Assembly (NCBI GenBank): GCA_030429345.1
Contig: JAUIFJ010000019.1
Span: 22,532 to 86,531 of the forward strand
Origin: a bacterium
GTDB lineage: Bacteria > CAIWAD01
Length of the DNA stretch: 64,000 nucleotides
Direction of reading: 5' to 3'
Shown here piece after piece: positions 8,461 through 41,573 of this stretch. Position 1 is the first letter of the stretch. Each line of letters starts with the position of its first letter. The notes under the pieces were generated by a model. The model saw only the letters and a list, made by a program, of their open reading frames with translations, was not told the DNA's origin and ran no database searches. Both the position numbers and the translations under genes were made by a program.

Positions 8461-8611
8461 TAAGAGCTCGCACGGAGATCACAGAGAAGACGGAGACCGC
8501 AGGGAATTCAAAGAAGGTTTGTGATGCAGGCTTCGATCCGCTTTCCATTCAGCATTCAACTCTTCTTTGTGTTCTCCGTCTTCTCCGCGTCCTCCGTGCG
8601 AGTTCTTCCTA
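8461..8611. repeat. Modular palindrome copy a (outer arms only), ends in the recA stop
   Basis: The left arm begins TAAGAGCTCGCACGGAG at 8461 and the right arm runs to CTCCGTGCGAGTTCTTCCTA at 8611. The two arms pair over roughly 50 bases, separated by about 40 unrelated bases. On the minus strand the last codon of recA is the TAG formed by the right end of the element. This copy lacks the inner CACGCAGAGACGCAG arms seen in the copies at 32900, 35276 and 41444. Confidence 0.8.
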
Positions 8612-9655
8612 GGCCTTTTCCGCCTCGGGAGTCGGGACGGGGACGGGCGCCAGGCCGACGGCTTCGCGGACCTTGTTCTCGATCTCGGCGAAGAGGTCCG
8701 GACGCTCGACCAGCAGCTGTTTCACATTGTCGCGGCCCTGGCCGAGGCGCTCGCTGCCGAAGCTGAACCAGGTGCCGCTGCGGGTCAGGATGCCGTGCTC
8801 CAGGCCCAGGTCGATCACCTCGCCGGCGCGGCTGATGCCCTGGCCGAACATGATGTCGAACTCGACCACGCGGAAGGGGGGCGCCAGCTTGTTCTTGACC
8901 ACCTTGACCTTGGTGCGGTTGCCCGTCGAATCCTGGCCGCTCTTGATGGTGCCGATGCGGCGAATGTCCATGCGCACACTGGAATAGAACTTGAGCGCGT
9001 TGCCGCCGGTGGTCGTTTCGGGGCTGCCGAACATCACGCCGATCTTCATGCGGATCTGGTTGATGAAGACCAGGCAGGTACGCGACTTGCTGACGCTGGC
9101 GGTCAGCTTGCGCATGGCCTGGCTCATCAGGCGGGCCTGGGTGCCCACATGGTAGTCGCCCATGTCCCCTTCGATCTCGGCCTTGGGCACCAGCGCTGCC
9201 ACCGAGTCGACGACGACCACATCCAGGGCGTTGCTGCGGATCAGGCGGTCGGCGATTTCCAGGGCCTGCTCGCCGTAGGTCGGCTGGCTCACCAGCAGGT
9301 TGTCCGTGTCCACTCCCAGGTTGCGGGCGTAGATCGGGTCCAGGGCGTGCTCGGCGTCGATGAAGGCGCAGATGCCGCCGCGCTTCTGGGCCTCGGCCAC
9401 CACGTGCAGCGTCAGCGTGGTCTTGCCGCTGGACTCGGGACCGAAGATCTCGACGATGCGCCCGCGGGGCACACCGCCCACGCCCAGGGCCAGGTCGAGC
9501 TGCAGCGATCCCGTGCCGATGCTCTCGATGTCGACGATCGCGCCCTCGTCCCCCAGGCGCATGATCGAGCCCTTGCCGAATTCCTTGTCGATCTGGCTCA
9601 GCGTGCTGTCCAGGTTCTTCAGGCGATCGTCCTTGCCGTTCTGCTTGGCGGCCAT
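8609..9655 (-). CDS. recA: Recombinase RecA
   Basis: RecA forms the ATP-dependent strand-exchange filament of homologous recombination and the SOS co-protease. The 348-residue protein has the Walker A motif GPESSGKTT near residue 70, the [14 protein letters not shown] Walker B block, and [18 protein letters not shown] (L2 region). The start at 9655 has a clear GAGGGGAG ribosome site eight bases upstream. It is the last gene of the conserved-type neighbourhood pgsA-cinA-thpR-recA. No recognisable LexA box was seen in the 45 bp upstream. The stop codon is supplied by the end of a palindromic repeat. Confidence 0.98.
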
Positions 9656-9700
9656 GTGCTGTACTCCCCTCTATGCGATTCGATTTCTTTCTGTCTCACA

Positions 9701-10276
9701 TCATTTCTTCGTTGTCCCTCGGACGACTCTCTTCGCGAAGGACGCCAGATGCACGAGGCGGTATTCCGCGCCCCGTTCTTTCAGTCTGCTTTCGTAGAGC
9801 CCCCAGCCCTCGGGCCGGAACTCCAGCGCTCTCGGCGGCGCCTGCAGCCAGGCGGCGCAGAGCTCCGCCGAGCCCTGTTTCACCCGGCCGATGCTCACAT
9901 GGGGCCGGTAGCGCCGCTTTTCCAGGGCCTGCCCCGCGCGGCGCAGGTCCCGCTGCAGAGCCTCGACCTGCTTTTGCAGAAGCCCTTCCGAGTCCTCGAC
10001 ACCCGTCCAGAGCACTCGCGGCTCGCGATCCGGACCGAACCAGCCGTTGCCGGCCAGCCTCAGTTTCGGCGCATGTGCCTCTGCGAGGCGATCCAACAGG
10101 GCCGGCAGGTCCCGGGCGGCGGCGGCATCTACCTCCCCGAGAAAGGCGCCGGTCAGGTGCAGGTTGCTTTCCGGGATCCAGCGCACCCGCTCGCGCCGCG
10201 AGCGCAGCAGCCCCTGGCACAGCATCAGTTCTTCGCGCACCTCCCGGGGCAAAGGCATGGCAACGAAGAGCCTCAT
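9701..10276 (-). CDS. thpR: RNA 2',3'-cyclic phosphodiesterase (2H family)
   Basis: This 191-residue 2H phosphoesterase carries the two family motifs, HLTG near residue 41 (WIPESNLHLTGAFLGEV) and HVS (RYRPHVSIGRVK) in the second half. It opens with the typical MRLFVAMPLP. Members hydrolyse RNA 2',3'-cyclic phosphates in the cytoplasm. The ATG overlaps the cinA stop by 4 bp. The gene lies between cinA and recA in one operon. Confidence 0.9.
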   Translation of the reverse strand: MRLFVAMPLPREVREELMLCQGLLRSRRERVRWIPESNLHLTGAFLGEVDAAAARDLPALLDRLAEAHAPKLRLAGNGWFGPDREPRVLWTGVEDSEGLLQKQVEALQRDLRRAGQALEKRRYRPHVSIGRVKQGSAELCAAWLQAPPRALEFRPEGWGLYESRLKERGAEYRLVHLASFAKRVVRGTTKK

Positions 10277-11574
10277 TCTGCGATCGGTGACAATGTCTCA
10301 GGGGCCTGGGACATCTGGCGATAGAGCCAAGCCAGGGCCCGGCCGACGGCCCGCTGGCGGATCTGCTGCCGTGTTCCGTGGAAGCGGCAGGCCAGGGCCT
10401 CGACTCCCTGCGGGGAAGCCAGGCCGATGAAGGCCGTGCCGAGGGGCTTTTCCTCGCTGCCGCCGTCGGGCCCGGCAATGCCGCTGACGGAAAGACACCA
10501 GTCGGCGCCGCTTTCCCGGCGGCAGCCCTCGGCCATTTCGCGCACCACCTCGGCAGAGACGGCTCCATAGGCATCGAGGGTGGCTGCGGATACGCCGAGG
10601 CGGCGGCACTTCTCATCGTTGTCGTAGACGACCCAGGAACCGTGGAACACGGCCGAACTTCCCGGCCAGTCGGTGATCGCCGCGGCCAGCAGGCCCCCGG
10701 TGCAGGATTCGGCCAGGCTGATCCGCTGAGTGCGCCTTTTCAGCGCCTCGACCACCAGCTGGGCCACCGGTCTTTCGTCGCGGCAGAGCAGATCGTCCCC
10801 GAGCTGATCGGCAAGCGCCTGCGAGAGCACAGCCGGATCCTCCTTGCCGGGAAGTACCTTGACCAGCACTCCGTCGGGACTGGGATAGTAGCCCAGGTCG
10901 GCGGCGGCGAGATCCGGGTGCGCTTCCACGCGGCGCGCCACTTCCTGCTCGGGCAGCAGCCAGACGCGGGCGTAGAGCGCCTCCCCGGCGGGCGGCGCCT
11001 GCAGGTAGTCCGCCAGCCAGTCCTCCAGCCCGCCGTCGAGGATGGCGCGCATCTCTCCGGGAACTCCCGGCAGGGCCAGCCAGCTGCAGCGCTCATTGTA
11101 GAAGAAGAGGCCGTCCGCCGATCCGACGGGATTGGCAAAGTTCAGCCCCGGAGAGGGATGCAGGCTCTGGCCGGTGTGGCCATGGTCAGGATCCCGTCCC
11201 GCGGCCAGCAACCGGGCGCGGAAACGCTGGCGGTGTTCTTCGTCGTGCACCAGTTCCACGCCGAAAGCCCCGGCCAGCACATCGCGTGTGCGGTCGTCCC
11301 GGGTCGGTCCCAGGCCGCCCGTGCTGAGCGTCATCCAGCCCTCTTCGCGGCACAGCGGTTCCAGAGTGCGCGGCAGGTCCGGCACGACCCGCACCTCCTC
11401 GACGACCAGGCCGCGCCGCGAAAGGCGGGCGATCAGCTCGGCGGAGTTGCGGTCGACGCGCAGGCCCGAAAGCAGCTCGTCGCCAATGCAGACCACGCGC
11501 AGGCGCGGCGGTGCGGCGGGCAAAGAAGGCAAGGCGACGCGCGCGCGCGCCATCGGGTTCTGTATCACGCTCAT
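10273..11574 (-). CDS. cinA: CinA: nicotinamide-nucleotide amidase with MoCF-like N-terminal domain
   Basis: This 433-residue two-domain protein matches CinA. The N-terminal half has the molybdopterin-binding fold (VVCIGDELLSGLRVDRN, MTLSTGGLGPTRDD). The C-terminal half is the PncC-type deamidase (SLAESCTGGLLAAAIT, SVSGIAGPDGGSEEKP). PncC recycles nicotinamide mononucleotide from NAD breakdown. The start is uncertain: the annotated ATG has GAGG only two bases away, and the GTG two codons on is better spaced. The recA association of cinA is widespread. Confidence 0.93.
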   Translation of the reverse strand: MSVIQNPMARARVALPSLPAAPPRLRVVCIGDELLSGLRVDRNSAELIARLSRRGLVVEEVRVVPDLPRTLEPLCREEGWMTLSTGGLGPTRDDRTRDVLAGAFGVELVHDEEHRQRFRARLLAAGRDPDHGHTGQSLHPSPGLNFANPVGSADGLFFYNERCSWLALPGVPGEMRAILDGGLEDWLADYLQAPPAGEALYARVWLLPEQEVARRVEAHPDLAAADLGYYPSPDGVLVKVLPGKEDPAVLSQALADQLGDDLLCRDERPVAQLVVEALKRRTQRISLAESCTGGLLAAAITDWPGSSAVFHGSWVVYDNDEKCRRLGVSAATLDAYGAVSAEVVREMAEGCRRESGADWCLSVSGIAGPDGGSEEKPLGTAFIGLASPQGVEALACRFHGTRQQIRQRAVGRALAWLYRQMSQAPETLSPIAE

Positions 11575-11629
11575 GGCCTCAAGTTCGCAAATCCGGTTCT
11601 GCGGAAACAGCAGCGAAGAGGCACTTCGC

Positions 11630-12451
11630 TCACCGGGGCTTCTTGCTGTCCTCTTTTCCGGACGCCGGGGAGTCGCGGCCTTCCCCGCTCAGGTCGCGGG
11701 CGATCTCGCGGGCGGCTCGCAGGGCTTCCTGGCGCCGCGGCCTTCCCGGAGCCTGCTCGACAATACGCTGCAGATGCTCACGGCGTCGGGCCGCCCGGTC
11801 GCGGGCCTGCTGGCGGGCGAGGCTCAGCTGGGCGCGGTGGTCCGGGTAGCGGGCGATGTAGACGATCAGCGTGCTCACCGTCAACAGGGCGCTCAGCGCG
11901 AAGGCCAGGGTGAGGAAGTGATCCTGCCAGGGGTGGGTTGGCGGCAGCAGCCCCAGGTCCCCGCCCAGGTTGAGCAGCAAGAGGCAGCTGAGCAGGGTCA
12001 GGAACTGGACGACGGTCTTGACGCGCCCGACCATCGCCGGTCGAATGGCGATGCCGCGGGCATGGCTGATGCCGGAAATGGTGGCGATGAGGATTTCCGT
12101 TCCCACGATCACGAAGATCGCCACGCGCGCCAGGCCCGGATCGCTCATCGGCAGGTCACGGATCAGCAGAGCCAGAATCACGCTGACGCTGAGCAGCTTG
12201 TCCGCCAGCGGATCGGCCAGCCGGCCGAAGGGCGTCTGCTGCTCGAGCACGCGGGCCAGCCAGCCATCCAGCGCGTCGGAAAGCGCGGCCAGCACAAAGA
12301 GCGCGCTGGCCACCAGGTGCAGCCCGGGAAGCGGACTGAGGAAAAGGATCAGGAAGACCGGCACCAGGGCGAAACGGAAGAGAGTGATGATGTTGGGAAG
12401 CGTGTAGACTCCCGGATCCTTCCCTTTCAACTCTGGAGACTTCGCTTCCAT
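11630..12451 (-). CDS. pgsA: CDP-diacylglycerol-glycerol-3-phosphate 3-phosphatidyltransferase
   Basis: This integral membrane enzyme makes phosphatidylglycerol phosphate from CDP-diacylglycerol. The CDP-alcohol phosphotransferase signature D-G-x2-A-R-x8-G-x3-D-x3-D is intact (DGWLAR, then GRLADPLAD). The start TLPNIITLFRFALVPVF is characteristic of PgsA. At 273 residues it is longer than usual because of a charged, Arg/Glu-rich tail after about residue 200 that looks helical and cytoplasmic. It heads the pgsA-cinA-thpR-recA gene set. Confidence 0.92.
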   Translation of the reverse strand: MEAKSPELKGKDPGVYTLPNIITLFRFALVPVFLILFLSPLPGLHLVASALFVLAALSDALDGWLARVLEQQTPFGRLADPLADKLLSVSVILALLIRDLPMSDPGLARVAIFVIVGTEILIATISGISHARGIAIRPAMVGRVKTVVQFLTLLSCLLLLNLGGDLGLLPPTHPWQDHFLTLAFALSALLTVSTLIVYIARYPDHRAQLSLARQQARDRAARRREHLQRIVEQAPGRPRRQEALRAAREIARDLSGEGRDSPASGKEDSKKPR

Positions 12452-12473
12452 CCTCCCCCACCCATCCTACACC

Positions 12474-12733
12474 CTGTCATCCCGTGGCTTGACCACGGGA
12501 TCCTCGTCCGCGTCGAAGACCGCATCGCCGCCATTCATACCTACTCACACACACCCGCGGACCCTCCGGCCTGCGGCCCACGCAAAGGATTCCGTGGTCA
12601 CGCCACGGAATGACAGCGGGGGGGGGATACTGGTGCGTCCGCCGCCGCCCCGGTGGCCATTCCGGTGCATCCGCCGCGGATCATCGTGACCGGTGTTGGT
12701 GGTTTCGCCGCCGCCCCGGACTGAAGCCCGGGG
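12474..12733. repeat. Composite non-coding repeat, copy 1
   Basis: It begins with the palindrome CTGTCATCCCGTGGCTTGAC and its mirror, and near its middle has the inverted counterpart GTGGTCACGCCACGGAATGAC. It continues with a GC-rich block and ends in the hairpin CCCCGGACTGAAGCCCGGGG (12714-12733). Together with copy 2 it fills the gap 12452-13147, in which I see no gene. Confidence 0.85.
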
Positions 12734-12757
12734 CCCACTCCACTAGCATGCCCTGCC

Positions 12758-13047
12758 CTGTCATCCCGTGGCTTGACCACGGGATCCTCGTCCGCGTCGA
12801 AGACCGCATCGCCGCCATTCATACCTACTCACACACACCCGCGAACCCTCCGGCCTGCGGCCCACGCAAAGGATTCCGTGGTCACGCCACGGAATGACAG
12901 CGGGGGGGATACTGGTGCATCCACCGCCGCCGCGGTGGCCATTCCGGTGCATCCGCCGCGGATCATCGTGACCGGTGTTGGTGGTTTCGCCGCCGCCCCG
13001 GACTGAAGCCCGGGGCTATCGTTGTTCGCCCTGCGGGCGGTGGATCT
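12758..13047. repeat. Composite non-coding repeat, copy 2
   Basis: This is a near-identical direct copy of 12474-12733, offset by 284 bp. It ends in the same hairpin (12996-13015), here followed by CTATCGTT and a second small hairpin CGCCCTGCGGGCG. That tail is shared with the arrays at 42.8 kb and 52.6 kb. Confidence 0.85.
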
Positions 13048-13101
13048 GGTTCATTGTACGGTAGTCGCAATGGGGCAAGGGCTCTGATTTCATGCTCTTT
13101 C

Positions 13102-13150
13102 CCCCTCCGTGTTCCCTGTCTTCTCCGCGCCCTCCGTGTGAGCTCTTCTA
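13102..13150. repeat. Modular palindrome copy b (single outer arm), ends in the recR stop
   Basis: Only the right outer arm is present (CCTCCGTGTTCCCTGTCTTC through GTGTGAGCTCTTCTA). As at recA, its terminal TAG on the minus strand is the stop codon of the neighbouring gene, here recR. Confidence 0.75.
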
Positions 13151-13759
13151 TCCTTCCGGCCCCTGCAATTTTTCCCGGCCGTCGATGGCCCGCGAGAGGG
13201 TCAGCCGGTCGATGAAATCCAGGCTGCCGCCCATGGGCACGCCGCGGGCCAGGCGGCTGATCGCGATGTCGGCCCCGCGCAGGCGCTCGACCAGGTAGAG
13301 GGCCGTGGCGTCGCCCTCGACGGTGCCGTTGGTGGCCAGCAGCAGTTCGCGCACCGTGCCGCCCGCCACGCGCCGTTCCAGTTCGGCAATGCGCAGATCC
13401 CGCGGGCCGATGCCGTCCAGCGGGCTGAGCGCCCCGCCGAGAATGTGATACAGGCCCCGGTAGTCCCCCGAGCGCTCGACGGCCAGCAGGTCGGGCAGGC
13501 TTTCCACCACGCAGATCAGCCCCGCATCCCGCCGCGGATTGCTGCAGACGGCGCAGAGCTCCTCTTCGCTCAGGTTGCCGCAGTCCTTGCAGAAGCGGCA
13601 TTCCTCGGCCAGGCGCTTGAGGGCGCCGGCCAGGGCGGCGGCCTCCTCGCGATGGCCCAGGCTGTGCAGGGCCAGGCGCAGGGCGGTCTTGCGGCCGATG
13701 CCCGGCAGGCGGGCGAATTCGGCGACGAGGGCTTCCATGGCCGGAGTCAAGAGGCTCAC
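13148..13759 (-). CDS. recR: Recombination mediator RecR
   Basis: RecR works with RecF/RecO in loading RecA at gaps. The 203-residue protein has the helix-hairpin-helix (RLPGIGRKTALRLALH), a Cys4 zinc finger (CRFCKDCGN and CAVC), and the Toprim block (ICVVESLPDLLAVERSGDYRGLYHILGG). The frame is open further upstream, but a GTG at 13759 overlaps the dnaX stop by 4 bp (GTGA) and gives the normal N-terminus, so I chose it. dnaX-recR is a common pair. Confidence 0.92.
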   Translation of the reverse strand: MSLLTPAMEALVAEFARLPGIGRKTALRLALHSLGHREEAAALAGALKRLAEECRFCKDCGNLSEEELCAVCSNPRRDAGLICVVESLPDLLAVERSGDYRGLYHILGGALSPLDGIGPRDLRIAELERRVAGGTVRELLLATNGTVEGDATALYLVERLRGADIAISRLARGVPMGGSLDFIDRLTLSRAIDGREKLQGPEG

Positions 13760-15557: not shown

Positions 15558-15606
15558 TCAGGCGCTCGCGGGTGTGGGGCGCGCGGCCCCGGTAGAGAAG
15601 CGGCCG

Positions 15607-15715
15607 CCTGCAGGTGACGGAGGATCGCGGCACAAGCCAGTATCGCTTACCGCTGCTACCTTCCGGTCCTGACGGGGTTTGGCAACCTGTCATTGCGCGC
15701 CCCCGCCACCTGCAG
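15607..15715 (-). ncRNA. ffs: Small bacterial signal recognition particle RNA (4.5S type)
   Basis: The minus strand contains the conserved SRP apical block GTCAGGACCGGAAGGTAGCAG followed by CGGTAAGCGA. Flanking arms pair across the whole element: CTGCAGGTGGCGGGGGCGCG at the 5' side with CGCGATCCTCCGTCACCTGC near the 3' side. The total is about 109 nucleotides, close to the 4.5S length. Its location just upstream of dnaX is the common bacterial arrangement. The exact ends are estimated from the stem. Confidence 0.93.
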
Positions 15716-15816
15716 CCGGCCGGCTGCCGATCGAACGGTCGAGAAGGTAAGGAAGGGGGTGGACAGAAGGAAGGGCGTGGGGGCGGCCTCCGGGATCCTG
15801 TTGCCGCGCAGCTCGC

Positions 15817-16395
15817 TCAGTCTCGGTGGGGCAGCTCCATGCCGATGCCGACGCGAAAAGTCCGCCCGCCGCTCAGCAAGCCGCCCCGTTGATCAAAGAT
15901 CAGCCTCGCGCGGCTGACGCGGATGTTCAGGTCGATGACGGTGTGCGGCGAGAGACGGAAGAACACACCGGCCGAGGCCCAGAACCCCATGCCCCTGGCC
16001 TTGTGCGTGGGCCCCGCCGTAACACTGCCATAGGCGGCTGAAACTCCCCCGGCCGCATAGGGAGACAGGTCTCCCGGCTGGAAGAAGAGCGAATAGACCC
16101 CCAGCGACAGGTCCGTGGTCGTTGCCTTGACAGGTTGCGAGAAGACCTTGTCGGACTTGCTCGAATGGCTGAGATCGAGGATCAGGCCCTGGCCCCGCGA
16201 AGTCCCCGTGAACAAGGTGAGCCCTGCCAGTCCCTGATCCTGCAGGGGATCCCAGTCCTGGTCAGGCATGGCCTTGAGGCCCAGCTGGGCCTGCAGCCGC
16301 AACTCGGCCCGAAGATCCGCCAGGCCGGTGGCGAGCAGGGCCATGAGGATCAGAAGAAGCCGTCTGGGAATACCCATTGCAGTTCCTGCGTCCAT
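15817..16395 (-). CDS. Small outer-membrane-type beta-barrel protein, paralogue 1
   Basis: This 192-residue protein has a signal peptide (RRLLLILMALLATGLADLRA). Its mature part opens with the family pattern LQ-x-LG-x-K-x4-DW-P, here LQAQLGLKAMPDQDWDPL. Alternating hydrophobic strands follow, ending in a barrel-like strand (FRVGIGMEL). Four other members lie at 20873-23413. Length and strand pattern resemble small OmpA/OmpW-type barrels; the function is unknown. It is preceded by 169 bp with no visible gene. Confidence 0.7.
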   Translation of the reverse strand: MDAGTAMGIPRRLLLILMALLATGLADLRAELRLQAQLGLKAMPDQDWDPLQDQGLAGLTLFTGTSRGQGLILDLSHSSKSDKVFSQPVKATTTDLSLGVYSLFFQPGDLSPYAAGGVSAAYGSVTAGPTHKARGMGFWASAGVFFRLSPHTVIDLNIRVSRARLIFDQRGGLLSGGRTFRVGIGMELPHRD

Positions 16396-22850: not shown

Positions 22851-22858
22851 CATGGCAT

Positions 22859-27913: not shown

Positions 27914-30337
27914 ATGCGCATCCTGCTTCTCATCCTGCTTGCCCTGCCCGCCGCCTGGGGTGAGATTCGACATGTGCCGGAGGACCACGGGACGATTCAG
28001 GAGGCGATTGATGCAACCTCAGCCGGCGATACGGTTCAAGTAGCTCCCGGAACTTGGCACGAGAATCTCGTCTACCCCGCCCACGCAATCTGCCTTACAT
28101 CGAATTTTTTATTCAGCCAGGATTCGCTGGACATTATCAACACGATTCTAGATGGGGATTCTCTGGCCACGGTAGTCACAATCCAAGGAACTCTTGACGG
28201 TCAAAGCATTCTTTGTGGATTCACGATTCAAAATGGACTGGGGTATTGGGAAGGCATCGGAATCGAAAGCATAGGGGGTGGTGTTCACATTCAAGGCGAC
28301 GTGTCATTTTTGCTTCGGGATCTAGTTTTCAGGGATAATGTTAGCCCCTACCATGGTTCGGCAATTCGCAATTCGCCTCGCCTAGATAATCAATCACTTG
28401 TTCAGCTGCGGAACTTGAAATTCGAAGTAAATCCCATTGAAAGAGTGAGTACTAGCCGATATGCCCAAGTCCGTCTTGATACGGATGCTAGCATTCATGC
28501 CCAGCAACTCTACATCGACGGCGAGTTTGAATCTAAGCAAGGTCTGTATTTAACGTCTGGAGATAGCCTGGTCGTGAAGGATCTGTCCGTACGCAATTGC
28601 GACCTTATGTGGATAAGTCTTATCGCAGATTCAAATGTCTGCGTATCTGACTTTCAATTGTTGGATTGTAGAAATGTAGCTCCCGTGATTAAATGCCTAT
28701 CAGGACGGCTTTCATGTAGTAATCTTCGATTCGAGGACAACTTTTGGATGAGTGAACACGCTTTCTATGGAGTTTGGCTTAATGGTGAGCTAGCAATTAT
28801 CGATTCGATCCAATTTCTGAATAATAGAATGAATCTTGCTGATGGTGAATCATCCTCAACAATTGCGCGCATAGCAAGTTATAGTGAACGGGGTTCAGTC
28901 AGCAATATGATTATGCGCTACAACACTGTTGATGACAGTATTCCAGAAGGTGATAGTTATGGCGAATTGGCATGGCTTACTAGCGTCAACTTGCTGAACT
29001 CAGAATTCACGGACAATCACCTTCACCTCAATCCTTCCCAGAACGCATCCAGAGAAGGCGTTGAAGGTGGAATGGTAAAGGTGACTGTCCTGCTTCCGGA
29101 GGAGTATGTGATGCAGAATGTCCGCTTCGAGGACAATCTGGTGACAGACAGGCGCGACTTTTCAGTGCTTCCAGATGCATATTACCCTGGCATCTTTGGA
29201 AGATCATTGTACTTCATCGGAACAAATTCGGCAGACACATTGACAATACGAGATCTATACTTTAGAAACGAACGAAGCCCAAACATAGCACCTGAATACA
29301 GCACAACTGCCGGTTTAGCAGGAGTTGGTAACACCTTCTATCTGCAGGCGCATCCAAACGTGCAATGTCTGACAATGGAAAACATCAACATTATCGATTG
29401 CGATGACGGTGGTATGTATGTTGAATCAGGTGCATGGAATCAACGGTTGAGTGGTTTCCAGATTGTCAATGTCAATCGAATGGGTCTGCTATATGATGCA
29501 TACAATGCTGACCAAGGCATTCATGAAATCTCGAATGGCTGGATCCACAACATTGTAGAGCAACTTGCATACATGCCATACCCATACATTTGGAGCATTC
29601 AACGTCCTGCAGTCATCACACAGGATGGTGACCATCTTCAATTATCAAATGTTACCATCACAGATTGCTTTACAAACTGCTTCATGATTACCAACGCTGA
29701 ATGGAGGAATAGCATTTTCTCTGGAAATACCTATGACCACTTGTTCGTTCCATACTACGGTGATCTTGGCAGTTCATTCTCCTACTGCAACTTGCAAGAG
29801 GAGATGCCCGGAAGTTTCAATCAGTTAGATCAAGACCCACTTTTCGATGGGGCACAGCCTCCAATGCTCTCTCAGTCCTCTCCATGCATCGATGCTGGAA
29901 ACCCTGATACTAGCTACAATGACTCGGAAGACCCTGGCAACCCGGGATTCGCACTTTGGCCAAGTCAGGGTGGCATTCGGTCAGATATGGGTGTCACGGG
30001 TGGCCCCAGGGCATTCTTACCCGAGGCGAGCATGGATATCGCACACCCGCGGGAAAGCGGTGGCAGTTTGGCTGGTGAGATTCGTCTTTCCCCGGCCTTT
30101 CCCAATCCCTTCAACTCATCTACTCGACTGCAGTTTGAACTACCTCATTCGGGCCCGCTATCTATTCGACTGTACAATGTCCGCGGACAACTTGTCCGCG
30201 TTGTCCTTGAGCAAGAGATGGCAGCTGGAATCCACGAACTGACTCTCCATGCTCAGGATCTGGCCAGCGGTGTATACTTTCTCCACTTCGACACACTGAA
30301 AGAGACGGCGGTGCAGAAAGTGCTGCATCTCAAGTAG
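27914..30337 (+). CDS. Secreted right-handed beta-helix protein with sorting domain
   Basis: This 807-residue protein has a signal peptide (MRILLLILLALPAAWG). It then has the start typical of parallel beta-helix surface proteins: VPEDHGTIQEAIDATSAGDTVQVAPGTW. Repeated strand units with Asn ladders fill residues ~60-650. The sorting domain begins near residue 727 (PAFPNPFNSST, SGVYFLHF) and ends VLHLK. Base composition is odd: from about 28.1 to 29.8 kb the DNA is clearly AT-richer than all neighbours, while both ends are GC-rich. That suggests a transferred or replaced central domain inside a native signal-peptide/sorting-domain frame. Confidence 0.85.
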   Translation: MRILLLILLALPAAWGEIRHVPEDHGTIQEAIDATSAGDTVQVAPGTWHENLVYPAHAICLTSNFLFSQDSLDIINTILDGDSLATVVTIQGTLDGQSILCGFTIQNGLGYWEGIGIESIGGGVHIQGDVSFLLRDLVFRDNVSPYHGSAIRNSPRLDNQSLVQLRNLKFEVNPIERVSTSRYAQVRLDTDASIHAQQLYIDGEFESKQGLYLTSGDSLVVKDLSVRNCDLMWISLIADSNVCVSDFQLLDCRNVAPVIKCLSGRLSCSNLRFEDNFWMSEHAFYGVWLNGELAIIDSIQFLNNRMNLADGESSSTIARIASYSERGSVSNMIMRYNTVDDSIPEGDSYGELAWLTSVNLLNSEFTDNHLHLNPSQNASREGVEGGMVKVTVLLPEEYVMQNVRFEDNLVTDRRDFSVLPDAYYPGIFGRSLYFIGTNSADTLTIRDLYFRNERSPNIAPEYSTTAGLAGVGNTFYLQAHPNVQCLTMENINIIDCDDGGMYVESGAWNQRLSGFQIVNVNRMGLLYDAYNADQGIHEISNGWIHNIVEQLAYMPYPYIWSIQRPAVITQDGDHLQLSNVTITDCFTNCFMITNAEWRNSIFSGNTYDHLFVPYYGDLGSSFSYCNLQEEMPGSFNQLDQDPLFDGAQPPMLSQSSPCIDAGNPDTSYNDSEDPGNPGFALWPSQGGIRSDMGVTGGPRAFLPEASMDIAHPRESGGSLAGEIRLSPAFPNPFNSSTRLQFELPHSGPLSIRLYNVRGQLVRVVLEQEMAAGIHELTLHAQDLASGVYFLHFDTLKETAVQKVLHLK

Positions 30338-32078: not shown

Positions 32079-32084
32079 CTGCCA

Positions 32085-32293: not shown

Positions 32294-32902
32294 ATGAACA
32301 CCCTGAACACCCTGGCCCTGGCCCTGGCCCTGTTGCTGCTGACGGGCCTGACGGAGAAAGCAATGACGAAAAACCTGGAATCGGCAACCTTCGGCGCCGG
32401 CTGTTTCTGGTGCGTGGAGGCGGTCTTCAGCGAGCTGAAGGGCGTGCACTCGGTGGTCTCCGGCTACAGCGGCGGCCACGATCCGGACCCCGACTACCGC
32501 GAAGTCTGCAGCGGGGAAAGCGGACACGCCGAAGTCTGCCAGATCACCTATGATCCCGGAGTGATCACCTTCGGCGAACTACTGGAAGTCTTCTGGCAGA
32601 CACACGACCCGACGACCCTGAACCGCCAGGGCGCCGACCGCGGCACACAGTACCGTTCCGTGATCTTCTATCATGACGCGGAGCAGCAGCGCCAGGCGAC
32701 GGAGTACAAAAAGCGCCTCGACGCCTCCGGCGCCTTCAACGACCCGATCGTCACCGAGATCAGCCCGTATACGGACTTCTACAAGGCCGAGCCCTACCAC
32801 CAGGACTACTACGCCAACAACAGCCAGCAGGGCTACTGCCAGTTCGTGATCGTGCCCAAGCTCGAGAAGTTCCGCAAGGTCTTTGCGGAGAAGCTCAAGT
32901 AG
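32294..32902 (+). CDS. msrA: Peptide methionine-S-sulfoxide reductase MsrA, exported form
   Basis: MsrA reduces S-methionine sulfoxide in proteins. The 202-residue protein carries the catalytic GCFWC motif (cysteine 37), GYSGGH, and YRSVIFYH. The C-terminal QDYYANNSQQGYCQFVIVPKL block is also typical. A hydrophobic stretch (LNTLALALALLLLTGLT) before the enzyme domain suggests export or membrane anchoring. ATG 32294 has a perfect AGGAGG eight bases upstream and is preferred to an in-frame upstream start. The stop TAG is also the first triplet of a palindromic repeat. Confidence 0.95.
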   Translation: MNTLNTLALALALLLLTGLTEKAMTKNLESATFGAGCFWCVEAVFSELKGVHSVVSGYSGGHDPDPDYREVCSGESGHAEVCQITYDPGVITFGELLEVFWQTHDPTTLNRQGADRGTQYRSVIFYHDAEQQRQATEYKKRLDASGAFNDPIVTEISPYTDFYKAEPYHQDYYANNSQQGYCQFVIVPKLEKFRKVFAEKLK

Positions 32903-33072
32903 GAGCTCACACGGAGGGCACGGAGGGGACAGAGAACACGGAGTTTTTAAGAACTCACGCGGAGACGCGGAGGCGTAGAAGGATTCCTCTTCGCGCCTCT
33001 GCGTCTCTGCGTGAGAACTCTTCTTTGAAACTCTCTGTGTTCTCCGTCTTCTCCGTGCCTCCGTGCGAGCTC
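32900..33072. repeat. Modular palindrome copy c (outer plus inner arms), starts at the msrA stop
   Basis: This is the most complete copy. Outer arms GAGCTCACACGGAGGGCACG (32903) and CGTGCCTCCGTGCGAGCTC (to 33072) enclose inner arms AACTCACGCGGAGACGCGG and TCTGCGTCTCTGCGTGAGAA, forming a hairpin of about 170 bases. The element begins with the TAG that stops msrA. Confidence 0.85.
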
Positions 33073-33079
33073 TTCCGTC

Positions 33080-33108: not shown

Positions 33109-33172
33109 TGGTTTCCCGCCAGCAGTTGGTTGACTCCCTCTCCCCTTGTCTTTGCCTCTGGAGAGGTGCGCC

Positions 33173-35257: not shown

Positions 35258-35275
35258 TGGAAGGGCTGGATTCAG

Positions 35276-35413
35276 AAGAAGAACTCACGCAGAGACGCAG
35301 AGGCGCTGGAAGAAGATTTTCTCTCCGCGCCTCCGCGTCTCTGCGTGAGAACTCTTCTCTATTGAATCTCCGTGTTCTCTGTATCCTCCGCGCCCTCCGT
35401 GCGAGCTCTTCTA
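35276..35413. repeat. Modular palindrome copy d (inner arms plus one outer arm)
   Basis: Inner arms GAACTCACGCAGAGACGCAG and CTGCGTGAGAACTCTTC enclose a short loop. A right outer arm follows, ending GTGCGAGCTCTTCTA at 35413. It sits between convergent genes, so it may also act as a bidirectional terminator. Confidence 0.8.
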
Positions 35414-35480
35414 AAGAATAACCCACCGACAAAAACCGGCCTTGTGTTCTTTCTGACGGGCGCGCTGAGCACAAGGAAAG

Positions 35481-36293
35481 TCACTCTCCTTCCCTGAGCC
35501 CTTTCGGTCCAGGGCCGGCGAGATCCTTGAGACGGTCCCGGTAGCGGCGGCTGGCAAGGACCTCGCGGCCGCCGCGCAGGCGCAGGAGCATGTCCCCGCG
35601 CCCGAGACTCTCGGCGGATTCGATGGCGTCCAGGCGGACCAGGGCCGAGCGGTGCACCCGGCGGAACTCGGCCGGATTGAGCCGTTCCTCGAGACCGCCC
35701 AGGCTGCTCCGCAGCAGGTGCTGCTCCTTCTCCGTATACAGGCGGACATAATTCCCGTCGGCCTGTGCCAGCAGCAGCCGCTCGCAGTCGATGAAACGGA
35801 TCCTGCCGCGCCCGGGCAGGGCGATGCGCTGGATCCAGTCCAGTCCGCTTTCGTGTTCCAGCACCCGGATCATCCCCAGGACCTCCTGCAGGCCTGCCCC
35901 CTCCGCCGTCGCTCCCCGCGCCAGGCGGACCCGGGCCAGGGCCTGCAGCAGGCGCCGGCGGGTGTAGGGTTTGAGCAGGTAGTCGGTGGCGCAGAGATCG
36001 AAGGCCCGGACGGCGTGGCGATCGTGAGCCGTCACGAAGACCACCTGGGGCGCCTTCCCGCCAGCGCGGGCCAGTTGCTCCGCCAGTTCGATTCCGCTGG
36101 CGCCCGGCATGCGGATGTCCAGGAAGACCAGCTCCGGCGAATGCTGGCGCAGGGCCGCTTCGGCCTCCTCCGCCGAGCCGCACTCGCCGCAGAGGTCCAG
36201 GTCGGCCTCGAGGCGCAGCCAGTTGGAGAGCTTGCGGCGCGCCAGGGGCTCGTCGTCGACGATCAGGCAGCGCATGCGCCCGTCCGGACTCAT
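35481..36293 (-). CDS. LytTR-family response regulator
   Basis: This 270-residue cytoplasmic regulator has a receiver domain (CLIVDDEPLARRKLSNWL, phosphoacceptor aspartate in LVFLDIRMPG, VFVTAHD, YLLKPY) at about residues 8-125. A LytTR DNA-binding domain follows at about 165-262 (LLAQADGNYVRLYTEKEQHL, RRVHRSALVRLDAI). Its ATG at 36293 overlaps the stop of the kinase gene by 4 bp. LytTR regulators bind imperfect direct repeats upstream of target promoters. An open frame continues upstream of 36293 but only as a shadow of the kinase gene. Confidence 0.93.
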   Translation of the reverse strand: MSPDGRMRCLIVDDEPLARRKLSNWLRLEADLDLCGECGSAEEAEAALRQHSPELVFLDIRMPGASGIELAEQLARAGGKAPQVVFVTAHDRHAVRAFDLCATDYLLKPYTRRRLLQALARVRLARGATAEGAGLQEVLGMIRVLEHESGLDWIQRIALPGRGRIRFIDCERLLLAQADGNYVRLYTEKEQHLLRSSLGGLEERLNPAEFRRVHRSALVRLDAIESAESLGRGDMLLRLRGGREVLASRRYRDRLKDLAGPGPKGLREGE

Positions 36294-37426
36294 GCCTCTT
36301 TCGCGGCGGTCCCGAGAACCATCTCCGCCAGCCATTCCTCGCCCTCCTTTTCGCTGCGCAGGGAAGCGCGCGGACCGTACTCCAGTTCCAGCCGCTGGCG
36401 CACGTTGGCCAGGCCCGTCCCGCGGCCGGCCGGCGTCGCGCGCCCTTCTTCCGGCAGGCTGTTGCGGATGCCGATGCGCAGGCCCGCGGAATCCGCCGTG
36501 ACACAGAGCGCGATCCGCCCGGCGCCGCTCCGCTCGCTGATGCCGTGCACGAAGGCATTCTCCACCAGCGGCTGCAGGATCAGCCAGGGGACCTCCTCGT
36601 CCAGGCCTTCCGGATCCACCGCCCAGTCGACGCGCAGGCGGTCGGCAAAACGGACTTCCTCGATCTCCAGATAGGCGCGCGTATACTCCAGTTCGCGGCG
36701 CAGGGGAACGCGCGGCCGCTCCGCGTCCTCCAGCGCGAGCCTCAGGAAGCCCGCCAGGCGCTCGAGCATCTCGTCGGCGGCCACCGGATCCTCCTGCAGG
36801 AGGGCCGAGATCGAGTTCAGCGTGTTGAAGAGGAAATGGGGCTGCAGCTGCATGCGCAGTCCCTGCAGGCGCGCCTCGTCGAGGCGGTGCTGCAGCTCCG
36901 CCTCCCGCTGCTGCTGCGCCAGCACGCGGTGGAACATGCGCCGCGAAGTGATCGCTCCCAGGACGAGCAGATAGACCAGCAGGCCGCGGAAGAGACCGAC
37001 TCCCTGCAGGTAGAACAACTCCAGGCTTTCGCGGGCCGGCTGCCAGAAGGCGCGCGGGTCCTCGACGATCCACCAGCGTTTCAACTGGATCACGAAGGTC
37101 AGAAGCAGCAGGGTCAGCGCGTAGACCGCCAGGGGCAGGAGCAGGGCCGCGAGGGCATGCAGCACGACCCGTCCGACACGACCTGTGGACGCAGCCTCCA
37201 GGCGCGGCAGCAGCAGCTCGAGCGCGCGATAGCCGCAGGCCCAGCCGATCCAGTAGAGTTCCACGTTCATCAGCTCGCCCAGGAAGGCCATGTCCCAGCC
37301 GCGCAGGCGGGAAACGGCCTCCCAGTAGAGCGGCGGCACCAGTCCCAGGAGCAGGGCCACGCCCAGCACCTTGTGGAAGGGGGTCAGGGGAACCGCCGTA
37401 TACCCGGCGGCGTTGCCGTGTGACAT
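36290..37426 (-). CDS. LytS-type sensor histidine kinase
   Basis: This 378-residue membrane kinase has about four to five hydrophobic segments in residues 20-170 and no obvious extracellular sensor. The His_kinase box is QLQPHFLFNTLNSI (near residue 197), and the ATP-binding N box is LVENAFVHG, with a G-rich loop GRGTGLANVRQRLELEYG. It is coupled to the LytTR regulator by a 4-bp overlap. It begins 6 bp after the stop of the secreted beta-helix gene at 37433, so the three genes are probably one transcript. Confidence 0.92.
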   Translation of the reverse strand: MSHGNAAGYTAVPLTPFHKVLGVALLLGLVPPLYWEAVSRLRGWDMAFLGELMNVELYWIGWACGYRALELLLPRLEAASTGRVGRVVLHALAALLLPLAVYALTLLLLTFVIQLKRWWIVEDPRAFWQPARESLELFYLQGVGLFRGLLVYLLVLGAITSRRMFHRVLAQQQREAELQHRLDEARLQGLRMQLQPHFLFNTLNSISALLQEDPVAADEMLERLAGFLRLALEDAERPRVPLRRELEYTRAYLEIEEVRFADRLRVDWAVDPEGLDEEVPWLILQPLVENAFVHGISERSGAGRIALCVTADSAGLRIGIRNSLPEEGRATPAGRGTGLANVRQRLELEYGPRASLRSEKEGEEWLAEMVLGTAAKEA

Positions 37427-37432
37427 GGCGCT

Positions 37433-39160
37433 CTACTTCAGCAGGAGGACCTTTCGGCGCGCCACCTGCGCGCCGCTCGCGAGCTCAAGGTAGTAGATGC
37501 CGGAGGACAGGCCCAGCCCCTCCAGCTGTCGACGGTGCCCTCCGGCGGGCAGGCCGCCCTCGAAGAGGCGCAGCACGCGGCGTCCGCGAATGTCGTACAG
37601 GTCCAGGCGGACCTTCCCGGGGCGCGCCAGGGAGAAATGCACGCCGGCGGAGGAATTGAAGGGATTGGGACGCACCGGCTCCAGGCGGAAACCGTCGGGC
37701 CTGGCTGCGGCGGACAGCGAAACGAGGGCGTTGCCTGTCACACGGAAGGACAAGGGCCCCTCTCCGGGGGGAGTGGTATGGAGCACGACCTCGGCATCCA
37801 GCGGGCCTTCCTCCGCGGGTCGCCAGACCAGGTCCAGTTCGCGCCTCTCGAAGGGAGCGACCGGAAAGGGGAATTCAGCGCGCACCTCCAGCCCTTCACC
37901 GCTGCCGTAGAAGACCTCCACCGAGTCGACGCTCTGTGTGACACTTCCCAGGCTCGACAGGGGCTGGGCGGCCTGTGTCGAGTCCCCCGCCGCGAGGGTC
38001 CCCAGCTGCAGATCCTCCCCAAGGCCGGAGAAGCCGCTCAGCGCGAAGGCGGGCAGAAGGGCCGCTCCCGGACCGCCGTATACTCCGGCGTCGCAGGCCA
38101 GGCTGCCGAGAGCGGGTGGAAGCGGCTCTCCGGGCAGGTCCGGATGCTCCGCGTCCTCGCAGGCGGAATCCGCGCCCAGATCGACGGCTGGCGAGGCGGG
38201 CAGGCTCAGCAGCCGGCCGCCGTCCTGGAAGAGCGGGGCCGCGTCCGTGTTCGGCCCGGACCAGCCGCCTTCGACCAGGTTGTACTCCCCCGTGATCCCG
38301 CTGCCGGGCCCGATGGCGCGCAGGGCGTGCAGCGAGGGGCTGCGTCCCGTGTTGGCCCAGACGATGTTGTGTCGCAGTAGCGCGCGGCAGTTCCAGGCAA
38401 GGACCGCGGCCCCGCTGCCGGACGGCGTCGAGCCCTGTCCCAGGCTGCGGTTGCCGATGAAGAGGTTGTGCTCGATGAGGCTCTCCTCCCCGTCGCCCCA
38501 GAGCAGCATCGCCCCGCCGCCGCCGTAGGCGTCGCTTTCGTTGTCCACGAAGATGTTGTGGCGGAAGATTCCTGCGCAGCCGTTGGTGACGATGCCGCCG
38601 CCGTAGTGCCCGCGGTTGCCGATCACCAGGTTGTGTTCGACGAGCGGCGCCCCGTCGCTGAACTGCATCGCCCCGCCGCCGTTGCAGAAGGTGGACCAGG
38701 CATCGCTCTGGATCACATTGTCACGGAAGATGTTCCAGCGCACGGTGGGCTCGCCGGCACGGGCGTATACGCCTCCGCCCTCGCGGCAGTTGGCGGTCAT
38801 CCTCGTCCCCGCGCCTCCGGTGACGGTGAAGCCGACCAGCTCGGCCCCGTTGTCCTCGCCGGAAAGGAAACTGACCGTCGACTGGCTGTCCGGATCCGCC
38901 GCCTGGCTGCCGTCGAGCACCGTGTTCTCCAGATGCTCCAGGTCGCCGTCGAGCACGAAATGGCTTGCCAGCACCACGGCCTCGCCGCGAAAGCGCAGGG
39001 TTTCGTAGTAGTGCCCCGGGGCCACCAGCACCGTGTCTCCCGCCTGCGCCTGGTCGAGGGCGGCCTGCACGGTCGGCTCTTCGGCAGGCACCTGCCATTG
39101 CAGGGCGGAAGCCGGAAGGGCGGCGCCGAGGAGGATCAGAAGGGTCGAAGTGAGTGTCAT
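37433..39160 (-). CDS. Secreted right-handed beta-helix protein with sorting domain
   Basis: This 575-residue protein has a signal peptide (MTLTSTLLILLGAALPASA). It opens with the beta-helix start VPAEEPTVQAALDQAQAGDTVLVAPGHYY, close to that of the 807-residue protein. Repeated N-N-x-G-x-G-G-I units (HYGGGIVTNGCAGIFRHNIF) build the helix to about residue 310. A linker with a strand-rich domain follows, then the sorting domain near residue 493 (VRPNPFNSSA, SSGIYYLEL), ending RKVLLLK. It is the first gene of a likely operon with the LytS/LytTR pair, which might therefore monitor or control it; that is inference. Confidence 0.86.
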   Translation of the reverse strand: MTLTSTLLILLGAALPASALQWQVPAEEPTVQAALDQAQAGDTVLVAPGHYYETLRFRGEAVVLASHFVLDGDLEHLENTVLDGSQAADPDSQSTVSFLSGEDNGAELVGFTVTGGAGTRMTANCREGGGVYARAGEPTVRWNIFRDNVIQSDAWSTFCNGGGAMQFSDGAPLVEHNLVIGNRGHYGGGIVTNGCAGIFRHNIFVDNESDAYGGGGAMLLWGDGEESLIEHNLFIGNRSLGQGSTPSGSGAAVLAWNCRALLRHNIVWANTGRSPSLHALRAIGPGSGITGEYNLVEGGWSGPNTDAAPLFQDGGRLLSLPASPAVDLGADSACEDAEHPDLPGEPLPPALGSLACDAGVYGGPGAALLPAFALSGFSGLGEDLQLGTLAAGDSTQAAQPLSSLGSVTQSVDSVEVFYGSGEGLEVRAEFPFPVAPFERRELDLVWRPAEEGPLDAEVVLHTTPPGEGPLSFRVTGNALVSLSAAARPDGFRLEPVRPNPFNSSAGVHFSLARPGKVRLDLYDIRGRRVLRLFEGGLPAGGHRRQLEGLGLSSGIYYLELASGAQVARRKVLLLK

Positions 39161-39312
39161 GCGTACTCCGGATTGCGGGACCGGGCACTCGCCCGGTGCC
39201 GGAGACTAGGAAGGGCGCGGCAGGGACCGCCAGTTTTTTGGTGCGAACGGGATCCGGGACGGGACGAATGCGGACTCCGTCAAGCCTGCGCCCGATTCCC
39301 GATTGCCGAATG

Positions 39313-39339
39313 CCGCGGGCAATCCTAGCTTGCCCGCGG
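39313..39339. promoter_or_regulatory. Perfect hairpin just upstream of the 691-residue lipoprotein gene
   Basis: CCGCGGGCAA and TTGCCCGCGG pair around a seven-base loop, ending 19 bases before the ATG at 39359. It could be an operator or an mRNA stem close to the ribosome site. No T tract follows. Confidence 0.45.
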
Positions 39340-39358
39340 GTTCCAGTCAGGATCATTC

Positions 39359-41434
39359 ATGCCATCCACCACCGATTCCGCCCCTTCACCGGGAAGCTCC
39401 CTTTCCGCCGGACACAGAGCATCCGGCCGCATCGGCTCCGCCCTGGCCCTGGCCTGTCTGCTCTTCGCCTGCGACTACAGCGACGAAGAGCCCTCCTTCG
39501 CCGGGCCTGCGGGGGATCCGCCTGTGGCGCGGCTCAGCATTGATCCTCCCTGCGGAGTACCGGGAACCCTCTTCAGCCTGGACGCCTCGGCCTCCAGCGA
39601 TGACCTCACGGCCGACGAGGAGCTCCGGTTCCGATTCGACCTGGACGGCGACGGCAGCTGGGACACGCCCTGGGCTTCCGAAGCGGTCCATGCCTTCATG
39701 TGTGTGACACCGACGGAAAGCGCCCGACTGGCGGTCCGGGACGCCGGGGGCCAGGTCGGCGTGATGCACTTCGCACTTGGCCAGGCCGAGGTCCTGCCGG
39801 ACCTGGAGCTGGAGCTGCTGCAAACGGGTCTGCTGCCCTTCAACGGGGATCCGCAAGGCTCTGCCGTCTTCGAGACCGCGATCCTCCTGCACAACCACGG
39901 CGCACTGGCGCGGAACACGCTTTCCCTGCCGTACGTGGATGTATACCGCAATGGCGGCGATGACCTGCTGGGACGCATTCCCTGCGTTGCAACACAGGGT
40001 CTACAGGAATGGCCAGGGCTGGTGCAGGCCGGGGGAAGCCGGGCCCTGCTCCTGCGCACGCAGGCCGACAACGGTGTGACACTTCCCTGCGTCGAAGGCC
40101 TTGCCTGGCGGCTGCCGCTGTTCCACGAAGGATGTCATACAGGCATCGAACTCGAGGGACAATGGGACATGCCCGCCGCCCCTCCCGCGCAGGGGCTGCA
40201 AATGGAGATCGGGAACCTCTCCTGGACCTACCCCACTCTCCACACGGGAAGCGCCTACGGTCTGCTGAGCGCGCAGATCCGGCTGCTCAACAACGGCCCT
40301 TCGCGGATCGAGGGCCTCTCCTTCCGCACGGCGAGGCTGTACCCCCGGGACGACTACGGGGCCGGCCGCAGCTTTCGCGTGATCCACGGCGAGGACCCCT
40401 TCAGCGGGGCGCTGGAACCGGGGGAGGAACGCCTGCTCGAGGTGCGAACGGCCGAGAGCCTCTTGCTGGATTTCGAATGCGAGCGGGACTGGCTGATCGA
40501 GATGCCCCTCTGGCAGGGCCATTGCAGCACGGAACGGCGGGTCGAAGGCATCGCCCTGGCGGGCAGCAGCGCCGCCCTGCAGGTGGATGTGCTGCAAACG
40601 CGCCTGATGCTTTCGCCCTCCTCCGCTTTTCTCATCGAGCTGGACCTGGTCCTGGAAAATCCGCTGAACGAGGAACTGGACGCCCTGCAGCTGATGGCCT
40701 TCCTGGATGCCGAAGGAGTCCCCGACTGGGAAACGTCCTTGCTGCTTTCCAGGCCCGATGGCACACGGCCCTCCTTGATGGGGGGCCAACGGGACACCTT
40801 GCGCCTGCACAGCGAAACCTTCCAAGCGAGCGTCGATTCGCACGATGTGCTCTCGCTGAGACTCTGGGGCCTGCATCGTGGCTGCCCGCTGGACCTGCAG
40901 GGAGCGGAACCCATGCAGTTGTCCTTCGTGGGCTACGGAGGCGAAACCCCCGACGAGGCCGTCTGGATCCAGCCCTTCGACGAGCCGAGCGGGTGGCCGC
41001 AGCAGAGCTACTTCACTCTGCTGGGAAACACCTTCTCGTTCCACAATTTCTTCGAGAACGCTTCCGGCTTCCCGCCTTGCTGCGGCAGCGATTCGACCTG
41101 CGAATGGGAGTATCAGTATACGGCGGGAAAGGATGTCTTCTACCGCTTCGAACTCTCCCGGCACCAGCATCTGGCCATCGAGCTTCGCTCGCATCAACAG
41201 GAGTTCTTTCCCGTGGGAGTACTGATGGACAGCCTGGGCACCGTCTTCCGCAGCTTCATCGGGAGCACCGAACTGCTCTATCCGGAAGCCGGCAGGTACC
41301 TGATCGGCGTCGACGGCACGACCGGCACCTACCACTGCACGAGCAGCAACGGTTCCGTCTACGAAGAGAACTACCTCGCTTCGGGACCATTCAACCTGAC
41401 CTTCCGGCCGGCAATCCCCATCGTCGCCCCTTGA
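39359..41434 (+). CDS. Large lipoprotein with PKD-like domain
   Basis: This 691-residue protein has a lipoprotein signal with lipobox LLFAC, cysteine 38, after an unusually long polar N-region. An N-terminal PKD-like domain follows (PPVARLSIDPPCGVPGTLFSLDASASSD...). Residues ~130-520 contain strand-rich units separated by conserved cysteines (CVEGLAWRLPLFHEGC, CERDWLIEMPLWQGHC, CPLDLQG), a repeated pattern of about 130 residues. The last 130 residues resemble a PPC-type domain (DVFYRFELSRHQHLAIELRS). There is no PNPFN sorting domain. AGGAT seven bases upstream supports the start. Function unknown. Confidence 0.8.
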   Translation: MPSTTDSAPSPGSSLSAGHRASGRIGSALALACLLFACDYSDEEPSFAGPAGDPPVARLSIDPPCGVPGTLFSLDASASSDDLTADEELRFRFDLDGDGSWDTPWASEAVHAFMCVTPTESARLAVRDAGGQVGVMHFALGQAEVLPDLELELLQTGLLPFNGDPQGSAVFETAILLHNHGALARNTLSLPYVDVYRNGGDDLLGRIPCVATQGLQEWPGLVQAGGSRALLLRTQADNGVTLPCVEGLAWRLPLFHEGCHTGIELEGQWDMPAAPPAQGLQMEIGNLSWTYPTLHTGSAYGLLSAQIRLLNNGPSRIEGLSFRTARLYPRDDYGAGRSFRVIHGEDPFSGALEPGEERLLEVRTAESLLLDFECERDWLIEMPLWQGHCSTERRVEGIALAGSSAALQVDVLQTRLMLSPSSAFLIELDLVLENPLNEELDALQLMAFLDAEGVPDWETSLLLSRPDGTRPSLMGGQRDTLRLHSETFQASVDSHDVLSLRLWGLHRGCPLDLQGAEPMQLSFVGYGGETPDEAVWIQPFDEPSGWPQQSYFTLLGNTFSFHNFFENASGFPPCCGSDSTCEWEYQYTAGKDVFYRFELSRHQHLAIELRSHQQEFFPVGVLMDSLGTVFRSFIGSTELLYPEAGRYLIGVDGTTGTYHCTSSNGSVYEENYLASGPFNLTFRPAIPIVAP

Positions 41435-41443
41435 AGCAAAAGG

Positions 41444-41573
41444 CCTCACGCAGAGACGCAGAGGCGCGGAAAGAGGTTCTTCTCTCCGCGCCTCCGCGTC
41501 TCTGCGTGAGAACTCTTCTCTTAGAAACTCTCCGTGTTTTCCGTCTTCCCCGTGCGCACCGTGCGAATTCTTA
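41444..41573. repeat. Modular palindrome copy e, ends in the SPOR-gene stop
   Basis: Inner arms CTCACGCAGAGACGCAGAGG and CTCCGCGTCTCTGCGTGAG surround a short loop, then a right outer arm ending GTGCGAATTCTTA. On the minus strand the terminal TAA is the stop codon of the SPOR lipoprotein. Confidence 0.8.

Follow-up and report, generated by a model that had tools for sequence, protein, structure and literature searches.

A dispersed 46-nucleotide repeat arm whose conserved end often lies at the stop codons of bacterial genes

RESULTS

A purine-rich repeat of 46 nucleotides (nt), GAAGARCTCGCACGGAGRGCACGGAGAAGACRGAGANCACRGAGAAGA, here called the outer arm, was found in a 64,000-nt stretch of contig JAUIFJ010000019.1 (the window) and in ~100 copies, singly or as facing pairs, across the genome from which the window comes (a draft assembly of 4,235,962 bases [4.24 Mb] in 92 contigs, 98% complete). 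Where the conserved end of the arm points at the 3′ end of a gene, it lies within 0 to 3 nt of the stop codon in 38 of 73 cases, compared with 2.4 expected by chance, and the arm then fills most of the spacer between that stop codon and the terminator hairpin. A preliminary description of the window, made from its letters alone, had suggested that such an element settles exactly at gene 3′ ends, that its end supplies the stop codons of its neighbors, and that its outer arms and a second family of inner arms are separable modules.

To place the arms relative to genes, we measured the distance from the conserved end of each arm to the closest gene on its outer side. The DNA analyzed consisted of stretches of up to 16 kb around repeat copies (labeled L###), and genes were called with a home-made hexamer caller trained on the same DNA. 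The exact outer core had 57 matches in the genome and its reversed control had none; a profile built from 30 arms gave 102 matches at an E value of ≤0.01, and 98 outer arms entered the analysis. The conserved end faced a gene 3′ end in 73 of these arms and a gene 5′ end in 25. Among the stop-facing arms, 38 were 0 to 3 nt from the stop codon, 16 were 4 to 30 nt away, 16 were further away, and 3 overlapped the gene. When arms were placed at random within the same intergenic regions, the highest count at 0 to 3 nt in 20,000 simulations was 9. The excess remained when the window was excluded (34 of 68 stop-facing arms), and it was also seen for the 12 arms detected by the profile alone after the hypothesis had been fixed (5 at 0 to 3 nt versus 0.75 expected; P = 1e-4). 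None of the 25 start-facing arms lay within 3 nt of a start codon. Single arms between genes of the same direction had the conserved end toward the stop codon in 16 cases and toward the start codon in 6. Genome-wide enrichment at stop codons had been set beforehand as the check on the proposed location, with its absence as the ground for abandoning the idea; the enrichment was found, and copies positioned exactly at gene 3′ ends are thus a feature of the whole genome.

Direct reading located all five of the sites proposed for the window. The features are as follows.

8462 to 8507, plus strand: outer arm of copy 1; TAA precedes the conserved end, which faces the start of a plsY-like gene at 22 nt
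8560 to 8608, minus strand: outer arm of copy 1 facing recA; TAG, then GAAGAACTCGCACGGAG
8609 to 8611, minus strand: recA stop codon TAG; GAA is next and the arm follows
13102 to 13147, minus strand: lone outer arm 3′ of recR, with no partner arm; TAG, then AAGAGCTCACACGGAG
13148 to 13150, minus strand: recR stop codon TAG; AA is next and the arm follows
32900 to 32902, plus strand: msrA stop codon TAG, with the arm directly after it
32903 to 32947, plus strand: outer arm of copy 3, abutting the msrA stop codon
32951 to 33020, no strand assigned: inner-family palindrome nested in copy 3, GAACTCACGCGGAGACGCGGAG ... CTCTGCGTCTCTGCGTGAGAAC
33029 to 33074, minus strand: second outer arm of copy 3, with end GAAGAGCTCGCACGGAGG pointing at a gene start 100 nt away
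35279 to 35356, no strand assigned: inner-family palindrome of copy 4
35365 to 35410, minus strand: outer arm of copy 4; TAG at 35413 to 35411 precedes it and is the stop codon of no gene
41442 to 41517, no strand assigned: inner-family palindrome of copy 5, 7 nt past the stop codon of the gene at 39359 to 41434
41528 to 41570, minus strand: outer arm of copy 5, abutting the SPOR-protein stop codon
41571 to 41573, minus strand: stop codon TAA of the SPOR-domain protein; its AA matches the conserved terminal AA of the element

The outer core GARYTCRCACGGAG occurs at positions 8464/8605, 13145, 32903/33072, and 35408, with a one-mismatch match at 41570. The stop codons of recA, recR, msrA, and the SPOR-protein gene (TAG, TAG, TAG, and TAA) adjoin arms as described, at distances of 3, 2, 0, and 0 nt to the G of GARYTC. 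At the fifth site the TAG beside the arm is unused, again as described; the closest gene, which encodes a LytTR response regulator, ends 72 bases beyond it. The description of all five copies as palindromes needs amending: full outer palindromes are present at 8461 to 8608 and 32903 to 33074, the site at 13102 to 13147 is a lone arm, and those at 35276 and 41444 have a one-sided outer arm next to an inner palindrome. The inner arms do occur in three of the window's copies.

The junction between arm and gene mostly falls within the stop codon. Directly before GARCTC/GARYTC, the bases AA are present in 46 of 50 arms away from stop codons and in 31 to 32 of 33 arms at stop codons, and a G precedes that AA in 39 of the 50 arms away from stop codons. 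The 33 junctions at stop codons, written with a slash after the codon, read TAA/GARCTC (12), TAG/AA (9), TGA/A (5), TAG/NAA (3), TAG/GARCTC (2), TAA/AA (1), and other (1). With the slash moved to the point where gene and element meet, the usual forms are T/AA, T/GAA, and TA/GAA, in which AA and usually G are conserved bases of the element; in most cases, then, the gene gives the T or TA of its stop codon and the remainder coincides with conserved element bases. The phase of the junction relative to the stop codon is not fixed. TAA made up 13 of 33 stop codons at arms and 10 of 111 in comparable arm-free genes (Fisher P = 1.3e-4), as expected if the element supplies AA, and TGA was scarce at arms (about 4 to 5 of 33 versus 42 of 111 controls). 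The proposal that the element end supplies the stop is supported insofar as this end often forms part of the codon, with AA as its last two bases in the TAA cases; in many TAG cases (TAG followed by GAA or AA), the whole native stop codon may be retained.

Proteins encoded next to arms have the normal ends of their families. SucB was aligned up to residue 415/416 at profile position 403/404, a cystathionine gamma-synthase/lyase family protein up to 377/379 at 376/377, SelB up to 623/626 at 579/581, and TadA up to 154/155 at 164/165. GltX and RecR end within 7 residues of the family-profile end, and MsrA has a tail longer than its profile. Structures agree with native ends for SucB and cystathionine gamma-synthase. 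Comparison of the recA and recR C termini with relatives lacking the element, which the preliminary description had proposed, showed that the ends of both genes in three element-free genomes of the same family differ in position by no more than a few codons. Since the ends are native by family profile, arms do not truncate genes or shift protein ends, and the idea that they alter those ends is not supported. The SelB homologue (L203, 3009 to 4889, minus strand) has TAG as its own stop codon at the arm; its presence means that this organism may decode UGA as selenocysteine.

We next compared the distance from stop codon to terminator-like hairpin. In 23 control genes with no arm and ≥60 nt to the next gene, the hairpin started a median of 36 nt past the stop codon; in 16 genes with an arm at 0 to 8 nt, the median was 55.5 nt (mostly 46 to 62). 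Subtracting the arm left ~10 nt, far below the native spacer (P = 1.6e-5). Either the arm replaces the spacer instead of lengthening it, or only arms at sites with a short spacer were kept. The arm folds weakly by itself (-7.0 kcal/mol), the adjacent hairpin folds, and the hairpins are different at each locus.

Twenty-six inverted pairs were found, with arms of ~46 nt and total lengths mostly of 96 to 170 nt in convergent and tandem settings alike. These pairs have the terminal inverted repeats around a noncoding core that are typical of miniature inverted-repeat transposable elements (MITEs); about half of the arms are single, ~46 of 98 having no partner within reach. The pair centers share no sequence between copies although the arms are conserved, and many of them fold as perfect hairpins with A and T tracts. 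The two arms of a pair are more similar than shuffled partners are (0.740 versus 0.692; P = 8e-4), and rare variants are common to both partners at L032, L054, and L043, which suggests that both arms of a pair have one origin or that one has been corrected by the other through a hairpin. No excess of target-site duplications was seen in 24 pairs (six end offsets, lengths of 2 to 9).

The inner family behaves as an independent module. Its core had 52 matches in the genome at ≤3 mismatches, versus 3 for the reversed control, and most of these had no outer arm nearby, which upholds the suggestion that the two kinds of arm are separable. Four of 44 inner arms lay 0 to 3 nt past a stop codon, and at least seven either directly followed the T run of a terminator hairpin or were no more than a few bases from it (CTTTTTT followed by GTTCTCACGC); inner arms that start exactly at the T run of an intrinsic terminator, or a few bases past it, are at L065 8442, L072 233/5238/10201/10302, L074 3023, L076 3236, and L079 3071. 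Both families thus include copies exactly at functional gene-end boundaries.

Several further properties of the outer arm were recorded. ATG follows the inner end of 27 of 78 arms (14 expected); as a candidate built-in start signal it coincides with real open reading frames (ORFs) in only a few cases (L035, L207, and L068). At these loci (L035 2266, L207 3043, and L068 9394), the inner GGAGAAGA stands just before the ATG of the next gene and could be its ribosome binding site. CsrA-type GGA sites within the arm were rejected because the G is frequently A (CACAGAG). Another palindromic repeat, CTGTCATCCCGCGGCTTGACCGCGGGATCC, often lies directly behind or inside outer arms (L042, L055, L056, L060, L062, and L066), so repeat families nest.

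The grammar of the arm is widespread. Of 290 genomes sampled from across the domain, 63 contained the general pattern CACRGAGRNCACRGAG, with up to 133 matches per genome and controls near zero. Like the arms, these palindromes are built of tandem units (CACRGAG RN CACRGAG) in inverted pairs; unlike the arms, they have other terminal sequences, which vary by genome (TTAAC, TTAGC, TTCAC, and GGAAC in G051, G143, G187, G233, G184, and others; also TTTAAA), and in the five genomes examined for this they seldom or never lie at stop codons. Stop adjacency was not seen in G051, G247, or G233, and two possible cases were found, in G143 and G187; as a general trait of CACRGAG repeats it was therefore rejected. 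The extended 23-base outer core was absent from a collection of 84,980 species, in which the source genome may be masked. A 14-base core was found in none of the four genomes from the same family or class, so none of these offered a relative with an empty site, and it had just three matches, each single and isolated, in the other genomes compared. Plasmid and phage collections held no match to the repeat, and literature searches with the repeat sequences returned nothing relevant. Because the ends differ, stop cases elsewhere are isolated, and the extended core was not found in the collection, the stop-flush arm appears from these comparisons to be a local development of a widespread grammar. 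The cross-phylum family of CACRGAG palindromes seems to be nameless.

DISCUSSION

We tentatively favor a reading in which the arm is a lineage-specific, MITE- or REPIN-like repeat that has been retained at the ends of genes as spacer DNA that completes the stop; it could well be right, and it is offered with less than full conviction. The basic unit would be the 46-nt arm, single or in inverted pairs with a variable center between the two arms, and in many pairs that center would be a bidirectional terminator hairpin. The arm would then have become a gene-end module, with its conserved end placed at the native stop codon and the inner end reaching almost to the terminator hairpin. With an end of (G)AAGAR, joining after the T or TA of a stop codon still yields a stop (T/AA, T/GA, or TA/G), so that arrival would cost the gene nothing. 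Arms that were kept would act as an unstructured spacer from stop codon to terminator and might set the hairpin in a range where the last ribosome no longer hinders termination. In E. coli, a terminator is repressed when it lies near a stop codon, and its full efficiency is attained at distances of more than ~30 bp (PMC4824070), so a spacer of this type could be useful.

Several observations weigh against this proposal. About half of the stop-facing arms lie away from the stop codon, a quarter of all arms (25 of 98) face gene starts, and two pairs stand between divergent genes; the repeat is thus at home in places other than gene ends as well. A recognizable hairpin is present in only 16 of the 38 genes with stop-proximal arms, and the median of 36 nt in arm-free controls is adequate spacing, so a spacer of this kind is not needed. 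The likeness of partner arms is more readily explained by a paired unit or by hairpin-templated correction than by two separate arrivals. No mobilizing enzyme was found, the RAYT genes having no arms in the flanks fetched, and the 24 pairs gave no target-site duplication, so that "mobile" is not established.

Two of the alternatives, stop-directed insertion and a mobile bidirectional terminator, are not well separated by the data. A nonautonomous element without function could have been inserted by an enzyme that cuts beside TA(A/G)-like or 3′-UTR (untranslated region) sites; because TA is rare outside stop codons at 65% GC, insertions would pile up at stops. The shortage of TGA at arms agrees with this, as do the ~8 of 50 off-stop arms with TAG or TAA immediately before the arm end (the intergenic TA rate is 2%) and the related repeats in G187 and G143, which often end in TTA(A/G)C. 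Most off-stop arms have no TA at the junction, though, none of the end offsets tested revealed a target-site duplication, and the loss of spacer up to the hairpin is left unexplained; we regard such insertion as a realistic, if unlikely, account. Alternatively, arm, hairpin center, and second arm may move or be copied together as a SPRITE-like bidirectional terminator whose center diverges fast because palindrome centers are unstable. The resemblance of partner arms and their shared rare variants, the clustering of pair lengths in both settings, and the many perfect hairpin centers with A and T tracts are consistent with a unit of this kind. It would have to accommodate centers that are unrelated between copies despite conserved arms, the nearly half of arms that are partnerless, and the loci with flush stop codons on both sides of a single palindrome (L031, L040, and L043), which need replacement of the whole intergenic region, and we judge it doubtful. 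We consider rather improbable a further scheme in which the repeat moves between gene ends, each time taking the place of all the DNA between a point within the stop codon and the hairpin of the terminator and bringing stop bases along, perhaps by template switching at stop codons and terminator hairpins and not by transposition; if true, this would make it a gene-3′-end replacement element.

Two other explanations are contradicted by the evidence. Integron attC sites have conserved ends and a variable palindromic center and lie right past stop codons, and a true integron integrase (TIGR02249, 452 bits, cutoff 265; L209 1396 to 3780) is encoded on contig C58 of G000, which also carries two arms. 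The integrase gene and the AT-rich cassette ORF that follows it are on the same strand, and the cassette ends in an ordinary attC-like site (TAACAAC ... GTTAGAA) that differs from the arms; the arm ends lack the GTTRRRY/RYYYAAC core sites, and arms are not in arrays and stand behind housekeeping genes on both strands, which makes an attC-like nature very improbable. It is hardly credible that the pattern is due to chance or to gene calls that end at arms since arms hold stops: the calls do come from a home-made caller, but the consensus arm, read directly, contains no stop in any reading frame of either strand, protein ends fit family profiles, and the simulations never reached the observed count.

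Among known systems, the SPRITE elements of Streptococcus pneumoniae (PMC3049150) share with the arms a small noncoding repeat in tens of copies, restriction to a lineage, enrichment at the 3′ ends of coding sequences (here 73 of 98 arms stop facing and 38 at 0 to 3 nt), and a terminator-like nature with no target-site duplication established; co-option of SPRITEs as terminators is suggested there. The stem and T tract of SPRITE are themselves conserved, whereas here the conserved arm is nearly unstructured, lies outside a locus-unique hairpin, and has its end within the stop codon, and the portion consulted does not describe base-level adjacency to stop codons. The Chunjie MITE of Geobacter uraniireducens (reviewed in PMC10969869) is likewise intergenic, noncoding, and ~100 to 240 bp long, with inverted ends and many partial copies; its description sets it apart by conserved terminal inverted repeats and direct repeats, in contrast to the absence of direct repeats and the unconserved centers here. 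In the stretches fetched, no parent insertion sequence was found, and no gene there had an outward pair of arms around it. Repetitive extragenic palindromic (REP) sequences and REPINs, which go with RAYT (TnpA-REP), are also extragenic, occur as inverted pairs and singles, and have no target-site duplication; a REP is a hairpin, unlike a single arm. The genome carries 10 Y1_Tnp (RAYT-type) genes (L187 to L196), and no arm lies within ~1.5 kb of any of them in the flanks fetched. The first four are flanked by palindromes of their own (e.g., CTGCAGGTGAAACCTGCAG / CGGCCGTTGCACGGCCG by L189), which suggests that the genome holds more than one REP system, several of them side by side.

Dispersed bacterial repeats are already known to gather between genes. 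Alignment with stop codons base by base, stop bases held in common, and a filled spacer represent a tighter tie to gene structure than we found in the literature searched. They open to testing the question of whether repeats reach the ends of translation units by targeting or are selected there, and they point to the CACRGAG palindromes of 63 of the 290 sampled genomes as a family that crosses phyla.

Other features of the window

An Rfam scan of the window had bacterial small signal recognition particle RNA (RF00169; 15611 to 15709, minus strand) as its sole match and returned no structured-RNA family for the arms. An ORF of 807 amino acids (27914 to 30337) with a Por secretion C-terminal tail and a weak beta-helix match was not called as coding by the genome's own hexamer model and is possibly foreign. 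Two blocks of degenerate 18- to 19-nt tandem units (CGAACCGCCGCCGTGG...) at 42228 to 43273 end in a GCCCCGGACTGAAGCCCGGGGC palindrome, which occurs further at 12991 and 52549.

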